DNA of 34,805 bases, from the NCBI GenBank assembly GCA_012270005.1, contig JAAXJD010000090.1, positions 1-34,805 of the forward strand, given 5' to 3'. Under the pieces are notes generated by a model that was given only the letters and a program-made list of their open reading frames with translations, searched no databases and was not told the DNA's origin. Both the position numbers and the translations under genes were made by a program. Position 1 is the first letter of the stretch. Every line of letters starts with the position of its first letter. The DNA comes from Flavobacterium sp. Lineage in GTDB: Bacteria > Bacteroidota > Bacteroidia > Flavobacteriales > Flavobacteriaceae. Below, one piece after another: positions 25,402-29,491 of this stretch.

Positions 25402-26181
25402 ATGAAATCTTTTTTTCCACTATTTGCACTTGTTTTTACAACAGTTACTTTCTCGCAGCAGCGCCAATGCACTATGATAACCTACAAAATGTATATGGCT
25501 ATCCCTTTCGCTTCGTCGTATTCGGGAGGTTATGATAGACTTATTGCAAATGAAAGCGCAGGCATTTTTTATCATTTAGGTGGTGAGAATTATTCAGATG
25601 CCCAATCTGCAAAAAAATATACCGCCCCCATACCCGGCGATTTATTACCCATAATAGAAACCATGTATACCCGGGCCGATGCAGAGAAAAAAGAATTGTT
25701 ACTGTTTTCTCATTTGGCCAGGTCTACAGCATTAGTTAAAGATACGTATGGCGGCTTTAACTGGAACGTGGGTAGCGAAACAAAAGTAATAGCAGGGTAC
25801 ACCTGTTACAAAGCAGAGGCATACTACAGGGGGCGCACCTGGACGGCGTGGTTTACTCCACAAATCTCGGTACCCTTTGGCCCCTGGAAATTGCTCGGCC
25901 TGCCCGGCTTAATATTACAGGCGTATGACGCTACCGGTGAGGTTTCGTTTGATGCCGTACAGGTTTCTACCGCCGGTTGCGACCTATTACAACGTGATTT
26001 TAGATCATTGGTAAAAACTAAAAATAAAGTGCCCATGCCTTACAGGGAGTGCATTGAGAAGAACAAGGAGTTTTTTGATAATCTAGACAAGCAAATGGAT
26101 GCAGACTCAAAAGCCATAGTGGTGCCAGACTTTAAGGTGCCAAGGTTTGGTTATGAACTTAAATACGAATGGGAGGAGTAA
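25402..26181 (+). CDS. GLPGLI-family envelope protein 1
   Basis: A 259-aa exported protein of the GLPGLI family, a Bacteroidota family of unknown function. The signal peptide (MKSFFPLFALVFTTVTFSQQ) starts at ATG 25402; ATG 25333 in frame would add 23 hydrophilic residues. The family core is DTYGGFNW...TKVIAGYTCYKAE, YRGRTWTAWFTP and GPWKLLGLPGLIL (GLPGLI at 166-171). The protein ends in YELKYEWEE, a tail shared by all copies here. There is no membrane helix after the signal peptide and no T9SS domain, so it is probably periplasmic or at the outer membrane. First gene of an array that ends in an outer-membrane barrel. Confidence 0.9.
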   Translation: MKSFFPLFALVFTTVTFSQQRQCTMITYKMYMAIPFASSYSGGYDRLIANESAGIFYHLGGENYSDAQSAKKYTAPIPGDLLPIIETMYTRADAEKKELLLFSHLARSTALVKDTYGGFNWNVGSETKVIAGYTCYKAEAYYRGRTWTAWFTPQISVPFGPWKLLGLPGLILQAYDATGEVSFDAVQVSTAGCDLLQRDFRSLVKTKNKVPMPYRECIEKNKEFFDNLDKQMDADSKAIVVPDFKVPRFGYELKYEWEE

Positions 26182-26229
26182 GTCATTTATAAACCATCGA
26201 CACTATATAGCTACTTATTTACATACAAT

Positions 26230-26642
26230 ATGAAATCGTATACACTCATTTTACTTTTATTGGGGCTGAATTTCGCCTTTGCCAGCCAAAGCAGCAGCAC
26301 TTAAAAATAGAATATGATATTTATAAAGGACTGGCCATTCCTTATAAACTAAATGCCACGCTTTACATTAAAGATGGCGTTTCTATATGGCAGGAACATC
26401 ATAATTCCAGAGAACCATGGAGCGGACAACCGGTTGCTGAAAACCTGAAGGATATGAAAATAGATGACAATGCCTTAAGGGCAGAGGCTGCTCCCTGTAT
26501 ACGAACAGATATGAAAAATAAAGAAATCCTTATGCATGGAGGTATACTTAAAAACTGGTTTTTAGTAAAAGATAACTTTGTGCCTATTAAGTGGAATATA
26601 ACTAATACAGGCTATAACAAATTGGTCCTTTCAATTAAATAG
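26230..26642 (+). pseudogene. GLPGLI gene 2, N-terminal half (frameshifted, interrupted)
   Basis: ATG 26230 opens a signal peptide (MKSYTLILLLLGLNFAFAS) that hits a stop at 26302 in its own frame. In another frame the text continues as QHLKIEYDIYKGLAIPYK and runs to LVKDNFVPIKWNIT, the typical first half of GLPGLI proteins, then leaves the family pattern and stops at 26640-26642. A shift near 26285 therefore separates signal peptide and body. The second half, with the GLPGLI core, is missing. The matching C-terminal tail appears at 27774-27837, after about 1.1 kb of foreign-looking DNA. Confidence 0.8.
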
Positions 26643-26658
26643 AGCCACTTTTTTTCAT

Positions 26659-26736
26659 AACTTCCAACCCGGTAACAGAGAAAAACTCAACTTTGTAAGC
26701 CGCGCCGAGCTCATACCGGCGAAACATTACGAGTAA
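26659..26736 (+). pseudogene. Possible C-terminal remnant of an unknown gene
   Basis: An open frame reading NFQPGNREKLNFVSRAEL and ending in IPAKHYE before TAA looks like the end of a real protein, and this stretch is richer in GC than the DNA after it. Reading further upstream it runs into the GLPGLI pseudogene. I cannot name the parent gene; it may be left over from an earlier insertion or deletion. Confidence 0.3.
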
Positions 26737-26767
26737 GCGTTTCAGAATCGACGAATTCAATAACTTA

Positions 26768-27289
26768 ATGCAACAAGTCATAAAACAATTAATATCAGAA
26801 TTATTATATTTACTACTAGCTTTTGTCAGTGCAGTACTTATTTTAGTTTTCCTTATGTTACTAACATTCGCTGGCAGGTTGAATAATAAATTTTTAAACG
26901 TTTTAATTTATAAAAATTTTATTGATAATCCATTTCAAGGAATATTTGCTTTATCATTTATTTTAGCTTTTATAATAACACTTACAAGGCAAAAAAAATT
27001 AAACTTTAATGATTACATTGTCAACTATATTTTAATCTTTACAGGTTTTGGCTTATTATATTTCTTTAGTAGATTTATTTATAAAGCACAAAGAATGAAA
27101 GAAAATATGATGTCACAAATTATTTTTAATGCACAGACAATGAATGTAACAATAAAATCAGACCAGCATGCCGCTAACTTTAAACAATATAATTATGAAA
27201 TTGTATTGTTGAGCAGTTTACTTATTATTGTGGGATTCATAACTATTAAAACAATTTTAAAACAAAAGAAATGCATAACGCACACGTAA
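26768..27289 (+). CDS. Unknown four-helix membrane protein in inserted DNA
   Basis: A 173-aa protein with four likely membrane segments, at about 10-35, 55-72, 83-105 and 145-165, and a polar stretch between the last two (about 108-143). It is very AT-rich with many Asn, Ile and Lys codons, unlike the GLPGLI genes around it. I do not recognise a family. It lies between two fragments of a broken GLPGLI gene, beside an AbiV-like fragment, and is bracketed by a 12-base direct repeat. A defence or cargo role is possible from context but not shown. Confidence 0.6.
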   Translation: MQQVIKQLISELLYLLLAFVSAVLILVFLMLLTFAGRLNNKFLNVLIYKNFIDNPFQGIFALSFILAFIITLTRQKKLNFNDYIVNYILIFTGFGLLYFFSRFIYKAQRMKENMMSQIIFNAQTMNVTIKSDQHAANFKQYNYEIVLLSSLLIIVGFITIKTILKQKKCITHT

Positions 27290-27404
27290 GAATAGTTTAA
27301 GGAATAATTTTTAGAGAGTCAAAATTGAAAACTTTACTTTTTGCGCTGAAAAGTGTATAGCTTAAAGAACTCATTACGCCCACTGGTAACAGCACCTAAT
27401 CGAA

Positions 27405-27471
27405 AGTACTGGTTTTGTGCGACATAGAACCAGTTTATTTCATAACTTCGTTCTGTGTCGCACAAAATACT
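27405..27471. repeat. Long imperfect inverted repeat in the inserted segment
   Basis: TTTTGTGCGACATAGAAC (27413-27430) and GTTCTGTGTCGCACAAAA (27450-27467) pair with one wobble, extended by AGTA/TACT with a four-base bulge. A nested pair ACTGGTT (27408-27414) / AACCAGT (27428-27434) offers another fold. It could be a terminator-like or recombination-site structure. Confidence 0.7.
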
Positions 27472-27536
27472 GTGTTCCTAAGGCCGCAACTGCGCAAAGC
27501 CACGGAACATTGTAGGCAATTATCACAAACAATACA

Positions 27537-27770
27537 TTGAACAACAGTATTTCTATTTCTGAAGTTAAATTAGGCATTATAAAATGTCTAGAAAACGCAA
27601 GAGCTTTACTTGAAGATTCAAAATGTCTTTTGGACAATAATCGTTATTCTAGGTCTTATACATTGGCCCAACTCTCATTTGAGGAAACAGGAAAAGCATT
27701 TATGTTGTACGAACTATATGTTACAATACAATCTGGAAAAAGAGAAGATTTTGATTTCAAAAATTTCTAA
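27537..27770 (+). pseudogene. AbiV-like abortive infection protein, N-terminal fragment
   Basis: Seventy-seven residues from a TTG start, all helical in character: CLENARALLEDSKCLLDNN, then RYSRSYTLAQLSFEETGKAF. This is the pattern I know from the N-terminus of AbiV-family abortive-infection proteins, which are usually near 200 aa. The frame stops at 27770, exactly where GLPGLI tail sequence resumes, so the C-terminal two thirds are missing. A functional product is unlikely. The family call rests on pattern memory and short length; start codon uncertain. Confidence 0.6.
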
Positions 27771-27773
27771 CAT

Positions 27774-27837
27774 GAATCTTGAAGTTAAAACGGCACCACG
27801 CGGCGGCCTCGAACTTAAATACGAATGGGAGGAGTAG
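27774..27837 (+). pseudogene. GLPGLI gene 2, C-terminal tail fragment
   Basis: The frame ending at the TAG of 27835-27837 reads MNLEVKTAPRGGLELKYEWE plus E, the same ending as the intact GLPGLI proteins (ELKYEWEE, ELKYEWEK, ELKYEWEQ). It completes the broken gene whose first half is at 26230-26642; roughly 110-120 residues between them are lost. Confidence 0.75.
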
Positions 27838-27878
27838 CGGCAGCTTATACAATACAGCGTAATATATCATCAACCGTT

Positions 27879-28643
27879 ATGAAATATACTTTAGGAATCA
27901 TCTTCTTTTTTTGCATTAAGTCGTATGCCCAAACTAAAGCAGGGCTGAGGGTTCAGTACACCATGTTTTGTAATACCGATTTACCACTTAAGTACAAAAC
28001 CATTTTATGGATACAAGACAATGAATCTATTTATAAAGAGGAATTTAGCACTACTGAAAGGTGGGAAGAGAAGCCTACAGAAGCATCAACTTTTAATATT
28101 GAAAGGCTTAGGAATAATGAAGGGACGTATCTCAGGGTAGATAATAAAAACAAAACACTTCAGTTTTTTGATAAACTATCTGGGCATATTATATTAGTTA
28201 CAGACACTTACAACAGTTTTAAGTGGGATGTTACCAATGATACTAAAGTTATAGCGGGCTATAAATGTAATAAAGCAACAACAAGTTTTAGGGGCAGAGA
28301 ATGGATTGCGTGGTTTACGCCAGAGATACCGGTTTCTTTTGGTCCGTGGAAACTGCATGGGCTTCCGGGGCTTATACTGGAGTGTTATGACGTAACACAA
28401 CGATACAGAATATCTGCTGAAGGAATTAAAACCGAAACTTCTGCGCTATTTAGTAAGGATTTCAAAACGCTAATGGTGTCTAAAAATAAAGTAGCCATGC
28501 CGTATAGGGAGTTTTTAGAGAAGCAGGAGGAGGCCAGGAATAATAGATTGTCGAGCCTTGCTAACGTGCCGGGGTTACAAATTGATAAAGCAGAGAAACC
28601 TCCGCGTAATGGAATAGAACTAAAATACGAGTGGGAGAAGTAG
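27879..28643 (+). CDS. GLPGLI-family envelope protein 3
   Basis: A 254-aa exported GLPGLI protein. ATG 27879 starts the signal peptide (MKYTLGIIFFFCIKSYAQ); an in-frame ATG at 27825 overlaps the end of the broken copy and is unlikely. Conserved parts are FKWDVTNDTKVIAGYKCNKA, FRGREWIAWFTPEIPVSFGPWKLHGLPGLI-type core (GLPGLI at 161-166) and the tail IELKYEWEK. One Cys in the GYKC position is shared by all copies. It is 41 bases behind the tail fragment of gene 2 and 68 bases before gene 4. Function unknown. Confidence 0.9.
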   Translation: MKYTLGIIFFFCIKSYAQTKAGLRVQYTMFCNTDLPLKYKTILWIQDNESIYKEEFSTTERWEEKPTEASTFNIERLRNNEGTYLRVDNKNKTLQFFDKLSGHIILVTDTYNSFKWDVTNDTKVIAGYKCNKATTSFRGREWIAWFTPEIPVSFGPWKLHGLPGLILECYDVTQRYRISAEGIKTETSALFSKDFKTLMVSKNKVAMPYREFLEKQEEARNNRLSSLANVPGLQIDKAEKPPRNGIELKYEWEK

Positions 28644-28711: not shown

Positions 28712-29491
28712 ATGAAGATACTATTAATTACAGCCTTGTGCATAAGTTCATTTTTCTGCTTTTCACAATCAAAAAAAATTAATGTAGAAGTGGGGTATTT
28801 AGAGTTTATGAATGTAACATTTCTGAATACTTACGGAAGATCATATTCAACACTTTTTGCTGATAATACTGCATCAATATATAAAAAATACGGTGGAGAG
28901 GTGTCTGAGGGGCAATCGTTTGATAAAAACGATTCACGGTTTGTGGAGATGTCTAAAAAAAAGTTTCATAACAATTACATCAAGACAGACTTGCTTAACA
29001 AAAAAATGTTGTTTTTTGGATCACTGACTCGGCATGATGTGTTGGTTGAGGATATTTACCCGGATTTACGGTGGACAATAACTGAAGAGCAAAAAGTGAT
29101 AGCTGATTATACCTGTGTAAAGGCCACTGTCTCTTACAGAGGGCGAGACTGGACAGCGTGGTTTACTCCTGAAATACCGCTTGCCGTTGGCCCATGGAAA
29201 TTACATGGTTTGCCAGGTTTAATACTAGAGGCTTACGATGCCACAGGTGAATGTACTTATAAAGCCATAACTGTAGCGTTTAAGGATAACAGCATATTAC
29301 ATAGCGACTTTACTAAACTGGTAAAAACAAAAAATAAGAAGCCTATTACCTATAGGCAGTTCTTACAAGACCGTAAAGAAGAGATAGATAATATAAGCAA
29401 AAAGCTAGACATGGAGAATCCTAATGTAATATCGGCAGATGTTAAAGTACCGCCTTTCGGCCTGGAGCTTAAATACGAGTGGGAACAATAA
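28712..29491 (+). CDS. GLPGLI-family envelope protein 4
   Basis: A 259-aa exported GLPGLI protein with signal peptide MKILLITALCISSFFCFSQ. Core motifs are LRWTITEEQKVIADYTCVKA, YRGRDWTAWFTPEIP and GPWKLHGLPGLILEAYDATGE (GLPGLI at 166-171). It ends in LELKYEWEQ. It carries its own copy of the upstream stem-loop element and is followed 41 bases later by the outer-membrane barrel gene, the pair most likely to be cotranscribed. It resembles copy 1 more than copy 3 in the segments before and after the core. Function unknown. Confidence 0.9.
   Translation: MKILLITALCISSFFCFSQSKKINVEVGYLEFMNVTFLNTYGRSYSTLFADNTASIYKKYGGEVSEGQSFDKNDSRFVEMSKKKFHNNYIKTDLLNKKMLFFGSLTRHDVLVEDIYPDLRWTITEEQKVIADYTCVKATVSYRGRDWTAWFTPEIPLAVGPWKLHGLPGLILEAYDATGECTYKAITVAFKDNSILHSDFTKLVKTKNKKPITYRQFLQDRKEEIDNISKKLDMENPNVISADVKVPPFGLELKYEWEQ

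Follow-up and report, generated by a model that had tools for sequence, protein, structure and literature searches.

What is the AT-rich stretch that splits a GLPGLI gene in the genome of Flavobacterium sp. (assembly GCA_012270005.1), and how did it come to lie there? The gene stands among tandem GLPGLI genes on contig JAAXJD010000090.1, of which positions 1 to 34,805, the whole stretch of DNA that was analysed, are called the window here. Its N-terminal part opens with an ATG at 26230 and runs into an in-frame stop at 26302; a GLPGLI-type frame resumes at 26301 and extends to about 26609. This remnant aligns with residues 5-120 of the intact GLPGLI gene 3 (254 amino acids), and the last 13 residues of a tail on the far side of the insert align with residues 242-254, so that roughly 115-120 codons, the GLPGLI motif included, appear to be gone from the broken gene. 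A Pfam scan matched neither the Porph_ging domain nor the GLPGLI motif in the remnant; both are present in genes 1, 3 and 4. The insert is ~1.16 kb long, with a GC content of 22-36% in 300-base windows, compared with 31-50% in the adjacent GLPGLI genes and 40-50% beyond them. Reading frames, alignment and base composition together bear out the preliminary description of this locus as a GLPGLI gene split into a frameshifted N-terminal part and a tail around an AT-rich insert.

The insert is very probably a dead fragment of an integron-type array. It would comprise an attC-like recombination site that has lost its left arm, a complete cassette for a 173-residue protein, a second attC-like site, and an AbiV cassette cut down to its first third. 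In relatives we observe arrays of such sites with matching cassette ends, a tyrosine recombinase linked to them and a predicted attI. These arrays probably form an integron class of their own across the Bacteroidota, with a recombinase that lacks the IntI-specific domain, an attI (TATAWAMDA/GTT, in many loci some 100 bases past the gene) and attC-like sites peculiar to it, and a cargo of toxin-antitoxin, defence and unknown genes; they occur on plasmids as well.

Parts of the insert recur in relatives as intergenic sites. Positions 26603-26703 match a noncoding stretch of one relative (G007:C24) at 88% over 101 bases, and in a locus search of 59 relatives 27424-27511 gave a weaker match to another (G021). 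In these relatives the matched stretches form sites that separate one small gene from the next. Judged by eye, at least six gene units there start with GTT plus about 7 bases and end with the reverse complement, the mark of integron cassettes. We built a covariance model of the sites (R1) from 25 aligned examples in other genomes, none of them from the window. The alignment shows three helices (R, L and inner) in which 18 of 22 pairs have changed on both sides, and 85.6% of cells are paired, compared with 26-40% when partners are slid; because most of the 25 sites were chosen by a scan requiring pairing and AAC/GTT, this pairing evidence is weak by itself. With R1 we identified 219 distinct sites in 37 loci, including the 25 model sites and the window's two (217 lie outside the window). 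They were taken from 241 matches, leaving out end-cut, partial-model and overlapping-locus copies, and delimit 181 cassettes, one of them the window's.

The agreement of cassette ends, a criterion that had no part in site picking, provides a test. Comparing the seven variable bases of each R' with those of the next R'', we found a mean agreement of 6.15 out of 7, with 104 perfect matches and 158 of 181 cassettes at 6-7. Shuffles within loci gave a mean of 3.67 and at most 59 of 181 at 6-7, and shuffles across loci at most 18. In an independent set of 54 cassettes between neighbouring sites, a subset of the matches that lies almost entirely outside the genus (L127 in the set is Flavobacterium), 31 reached 6-7 of 7, compared with at most 7 in shuffles. 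Sites share one strand in all 37 loci, and 214 of 232 cassettes hold an open reading frame (ORF) of at least 60 amino acids, 196 of them on the site strand, with the median ORF filling 88.5% of its cassette. The sites are ~125-205 bases long, and their R-L spacers are unequal (3 and ~7 bases). When the bottom strand is folded, seven of eight intact sites have a plan in common; the bottom-strand energy is lower than that of the top strand in six of the eight, equal in one and higher in one. R1 had no match in the loci of six IntI-type integrases (L182, L187, L198-L201) within the stretch covered, beyond which their arrays may lie.

The arrays are linked to a tyrosine recombinase. Among 20 loci around its gene (L070-L089), 14 contain sites: in 13 the array follows the recombinase gene on the same strand, and in one it is divergent; 11 of the 20 fed the model, and only L077, L084 and L089 among the 14 positives are independent of it. 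Two further sets are independent of the model. Of the best 80 of 588 loci retrieved from named genomes by recombinase alone, 41 belong to Bacteroidota, 38 to other phyla and one is unassigned; sites were found in 18 of the Bacteroidota loci and in none of the rest, and 44 of the 45 sites lie downstream on the recombinase strand. Among the taxa represented are Flavobacterium aciduliphilum, Algoriphagus ornithinivorans, Cyclobacterium, Algibacter onchidii, Winogradskyella ursingii and Seonamhaeicola aphaedonensis. Conversely, 7 of 12 loci selected by their sites, drawn from the best-scoring matches of a phylum survey, contain the recombinase, five on the array strand and two divergent. Across 60 relatives, with 54 candidates scored per genome, sites were found in 21 of 23 genomes with the recombinase (mean 17.0) and in 18 of 37 without it (mean 4.2; Fisher p 8e-4).

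A divergent array was seen in L075, L144, L255 and L262, and also in L102 (L075 and L102 both belong to G022); the recombinases of L075 and L144 share a clade, and those of L255 and L262 stand apart. On a second Chryseobacterium plasmid (L264), the recombinase is present and no site was found. Short C-terminal pieces of the recombinase occur at G004:C1:480810-481058, G046:C1:322273-322563 and G048:C34:97526-97756, and are perhaps the remains of lost platforms. Arrays make up many of the 4-20 kb contigs in G009 and G030, and recombinase genes often lie near contig ends, so that arrays probably break assemblies.

Behind the recombinase gene, 24 of 27 same-strand loci contain a partner for the R'' of the first site that agrees at 8-10 of 10 bases, all ten in 16 loci. 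In 20 of the 27 this predicted attI partner lies 37-156 bases past the recombinase stop, often after the motif TATAWAMDA, suggesting that attI likely lies next to the recombinase gene. Within 180 bases of the stop, 21 of 49 loci carry the motif and 28 lack it, compared with 2% of random windows that carry it; it was read off some of the loci later counted, and among the 21 are L076, L077, L078, L082, L125 and L135, which had no part in the reading. In six loci (L080, L083, L089, L070, L084, L124), an inverted repeat of changing sequence lies between the recombinase stop and the predicted attI.

Sequence sets this recombinase apart from IntI in the strict sense. The distance from KGxxxR to LRH is 65-71 residues in the Bacteroidota family, 108 in six IntI-type proteins and 73-75 in Xer-type proteins, and the structure of IntI4 (2a3v) has 58 residues where our query has 16. 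Unlike IntI, the family thus carries no IntI-specific additional domain (an insert of ~41 residues), and it has an extra N-terminal stretch of ~70 residues. Scores with TIGR02249 are 187-215 bits for recombinases of the relatives (cut-off 265; six proteins) and 441-487 bits for five of the six IntI-type proteins, and NF040815 gives the family 198-230 bits, around its cut-off of 220. Structure prediction reached a predicted local distance difference test score (pLDDT) of 38 from a single sequence and 89 from a 34-row alignment, and we used the latter. Residues 68-344 of this model match XerA (5hxy) with Z 24.4 (root-mean-square deviation, rmsd, 13.9) and IntI4 (2a3v) with Z 22.4 (rmsd 3.4 over 267 residues), a comparison that barely covers the first ~68 residues. 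In a quick tree, the IntI-type proteins form one clade (100 by the Shimodaira-Hasegawa-like approximate likelihood ratio test, SH-aLRT) and 61 mostly Bacteroidota rows another (87, open fork), with a few Bacteroidota rows outside. The family resembles XerA, XerH and XerCD in fold and sequence. Unlike these, it is linked to attC-like arrays, and its profile scores are separate, at least 415 bits in 23 of 60 genomes with the next match at 202. Two recombinases linked to arrays (L071:6691-8349, L072:3268-5010) reach 550-580 residues, carry long N-terminal extensions and adjoin IntI in the quick tree (88).

In the window, R1 recovers two sites 646 bases apart. Their own genome, where 54 of 2369 first-look candidates were scored, has at least two R1 matches, which fit the window's two in number and E-value. 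The pair has the makeup of a cluster of attC sites lacking integron-integrases (CALIN; at least two sites within 4 kb, integrase not near), as assigned from the R1 sites and the recombinase search rather than from an IntegronFinder run. At the crossover both sites read ATT, compared with GTT in register in 176 of 192 sites outside the model; since GTT had been required of the model set, the tally is limited to those 192. Site 1 has a folding z of -0.12 on the bottom strand, no better than shuffled sequence, and -1.97 on the top strand, and in site 2 the inner hairpin alone still folds. The sites and cassette fragment look dead, because both sites carry ATT instead of GTT and the family recombinase was not found in the genome. 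A terminator or known RNA is ruled against by Rfam, which gave four sub-threshold matches only over 26200-27900 (three microRNA, one PAGEV). In five array loci Rfam returned one tRNA only.

Between the two sites lies a cassette whose arms, ATTACGAGTA and CACTGGTAAC, match at 5 of 7 bases; just 1 of 72 other R'' arms does so. A stretch near its start (26748-26811) recurs directly behind a site in another genome (G029). The 173-residue protein that it encodes is an orphan, with no match in Pfam or PADLOC and none (E <= 1e-5) among 248 further genomes of the genus, in keeping with the preliminary reading of this membrane-protein-like gene as part of an insertion and against its being a conserved member of the GLPGLI array. 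The gene behind the second site had been described as a truncated AbiV-like frame, and a profile search of its 77 residues confirmed this: Pfam PF18728 (HEPN_AbiV) matches at 61.1 bits (E 1.8e-16; cut-off 27.1) over profile positions 4-63 of 155, and PADLOC's AbiV profile at E 1e-4. It is the sole AbiV match in its own genome. Its relatives have open frames of 197-213 amino acids; this one stops at 27770, does not encode a complete HEPN domain and cannot act as a defence gene. No site was found within 1.5 kb on either side of AbiV relatives in three genomes. Coordinates of all features are collected in Table 1.

Table 1. Features of the split GLPGLI locus, in window positions; E-values for the two attC-like sites are rough.
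Feature	Position	Strand	Basis and remarks
Intact GLPGLI gene 1 (Porph_ging)	25402..26181	+	Pfam PF09697, 42 bits (scan of longer ORF from 25333); ATG 25402 chosen as start
GLPGLI gene remnant, N-terminal part	26230..26609	+	Alignment with gene 3 residues 5-120; frameshift near 26300
attC-like site 1, decayed	26597..26735	+	Model R1, 31 bits, E 2e-5 (window); R'' arm replaced by GLPGLI sequence; R' ATTACGAGTA
Left junction, GLPGLI / attC-like site 1	26602..26610	.	Overlap of likeness to the G007 site and GLPGLI likeness
Gene cassette 1, R' to R'', membrane-protein-like gene	26726..27390	+	Arms ATTACGAGTA / CACTGGTAAC
Orphan protein, 173 amino acids	26768..27289	+	ORF; hydrophobic as judged by reading, not by a membrane predictor
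attC-like site 2, decayed	27381..27518	+	Model R1, 41 bits, E 1e-7 (window); R' ATTGTAGGCA
Inverted repeat, terminal hairpin of site 2	27413..27467	.	Around the TTTCATAACTTC motif, common to some other sites
Truncated AbiV cassette gene, 77 amino acids, about the first third	27537..27770	+	PF18728 match
Right junction, AbiV / GLPGLI tail	27766..27775	.	Reading frames
GLPGLI C-terminal tail MNLEVKTAPRGGLELKYEWEE	27772..27837	+	Translation and alignment
Intact GLPGLI gene 3	27879..28643	+	PF09697, 48.5 bits (scan of longer ORF from 27825)
Intact GLPGLI gene 4	28712..29491	+	PF09697, 46 bits

How would such a fragment have been formed? In live arrays, a tyrosine recombinase encoded at the head would join one folded attC-like site to another, or to the attI just past its own gene, at G/TT, so that genes would be gained and lost as small circles with matching ends; recombination itself and the use of folded single strands we infer from the anatomy of the arrays. 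The fragment in the window would have arrived by illegitimate joining of the microhomology type, replacing the ~115-120 GLPGLI codons, after which both sites would have lost their GTT core. The right junction, previously placed within about 20 bases, narrows to ~27766-27775. At the left junction, likeness to the G007 site starts at 26602-26603 and GLPGLI likeness extends to ~26609. We favour a single illegitimate event with an array fragment, to which we give about an even chance, because neither junction lies at a crossover (the left one falls on the R'' arm, the right one inside AbiV) and because it is simpler.

The two GLPGLI parts likely derive from one gene. Because the tail (27811-27836) and the end of gene 1 (26155-26180) have 26 identical bases in common, sequence may instead have been lost between two adjacent GLPGLI genes. 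A search of 59 other genomes for an empty site found no close relative of the locus. Three orthologous loci, recognized by an outer-membrane protein (48-60% identity), carry tandem GLPGLI genes, two in G078 (at a contig end), six in G197 and eight in G022, and attC-like sites of this type were found in none of the three. GLPGLI genes may themselves be cassette cargo. In L236:220-358 (G155), a site lies directly 3' of a GLPGLI and outer-membrane-protein pair on the same strand.

Alternatively, the recombinase may have inserted cassettes into a secondary site of the chromosome, and two deletions would then have followed, one on the left, of the first cassette gene and part of the GLPGLI gene, and one on the right, of the rest of AbiV and its site. 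Cassette integration outside arrays has a precedent in the attG sites used by integrons in E. coli, according to work cited in PMC12444791. Stray cassettes also seem common here, with sites in 16 of 18 genomes of the genus that have no recombinase. This route needs three events, however, and neither junction lies at G/TT. In the integron reaction the R'' arm, with which the left junction coincides, is not known to be cut. We therefore regard integration at a secondary site as a tentative alternative to illegitimate joining.

The preliminary description had proposed a small defence cassette, a membrane protein together with AbiV, that was inserted and then trimmed along with its host gene. The foreign origin of the insert and the loss of host and cassette sequence stand, and the AbiV match, the loss on both sides and the defence genes among cassette cargo all suit this proposal. 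A single defence cassette does not stand: the insert is an array fragment with two sites in which AbiV is one of two genes, one recombination site (27381-27518) separates the two genes and another precedes them, and the membrane protein, unmatched in the 248 other genomes, is never paired with AbiV there. We thus consider a stand-alone cassette improbable. Slighter still are the chances of an assembly artefact in which an array contig was misjoined into the GLPGLI tandem repeat. Both GLPGLI tandems and arrays may break assemblies, and the 26 bases shared by the end of gene 1 and the tail would lend themselves to a misjoin, but the two sites share the same decay, GTT having become ATT in both, and the assembly yielded no further array sequence. 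That the hairpins are transcription terminators or repeat elements resembling attC by chance is the least credible idea, for although intergenic hairpins are common and the inner hairpin at 27413-27467 is strong by itself, chance would have to account for the matching cassette ends, the single orientation, the linkage to a recombinase and the 88% match to the G007 site over 101 bases.

Several observations weigh against reading the insert and the arrays as we do. At 31 and 41 bits, the two sites in the window score low (most others reach 50-120) and do not fold as intact sites do, and the 5-of-7 arm match of the window cassette could be chance. A search of the window's own genome, 93% complete in 227 contigs, turned up no member of the recombinase family (best match 177 bits, the Xer level). 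Within the genus, sites occur in 18 of 19 genomes with the recombinase and 16 of 18 without it, so that only the counts differ (p 0.03). Among the live arrays, both strands of intact sites fold, so that folding does not single out the strand used. The attI partner lies 223-1660 bases away in L074, L142, L164 and L263, possibly owing to a missed site; L138 has none, and L076 and L149 were read out of register.

The arrays share much with integrons, both sedentary chromosomal ones and CALIN: cassettes mostly of one gene, imperfect hairpin sites with R and L arms and a variable loop, matching R' and R'' ends, a single orientation, a cargo of toxin-antitoxin and defence genes, and a platform with an integrase and a predicted attI. 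They differ in the recombinase and also in layout, since classic integrons have integrase and array divergent and the Bacteroidota arrays lie mostly downstream on the recombinase strand. The consensus of the attC R' arm in integrons is GTTRRRY; R' in the Bacteroidota sites starts with GTT but often departs from the rest. The length of these sites and their unequal spacers are further differences. The system resembles an integron and, we infer, works as one, but misses one defining feature of IntI integrons.

Integrons have been reported before in this part of the bacterial tree. The IntegronFinder 2.0 survey describes Bacteroidetes as formerly having only integrases without cassettes and then one complete integron, in Salinibacter ruber, and knows integrons in Chlorobi and Ignavibacteriae (PMC9024848); intI genes from the Bacteroidetes/Chlorobi group figure in a survey of 2008 (PMC2426708); and in later papers Bacteroidota appear among the phyla with integrons (PMC8618304, PMC9668308). 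IntegronFinder requires the IntI-specific additional domain (PMC9668308). Defence genes in known integrons have been published (papers cited in PMC12444791). In the literature searched, with preprints and most subscription papers outside, there was no account of this system or of a recombinase lacking the IntI domain, and a description may exist.

R1 sites occur in at least 148 of 296 genomes across the GTDB phylum and in at least 85 of 139 genera, with at most 11 candidates scored per genome. The sample may include Chlorobi-like groups, where ordinary integrons are known. If the arrays work as proposed, cassette capture would be a common way for genes, those for defence among them, to move within a major phylum, and surveys that require the IntI-specific domain would miss the recombinase. 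Should the recombinase use folded single-stranded sites, the IntI-specific domain would be dispensable for that chemistry, and the system offers a natural test of the need for it. Arrays may also account for many of the orphan genes that lie between hairpins in these genomes. The window would represent the opposite end of this traffic, in which stray cassettes decay inside host genes.

For cargo, we scanned 140 of 213 cassette ORFs and listed the 25 commonest families. Among the matches listed are four ParE toxins and three HNH nucleases in Pfam, and Shedu SduA, SspE, PD-Lambda-2 and HEC-06 in PADLOC, a toxin and defence cargo that the AbiV cassette fits. A plasmid of Chryseobacterium sp. SNU WT5 (L263:8001-17035) bears an integron-like array that comprises the recombinase and four sites and has both a GLPGLI gene and a group II intron inside it.

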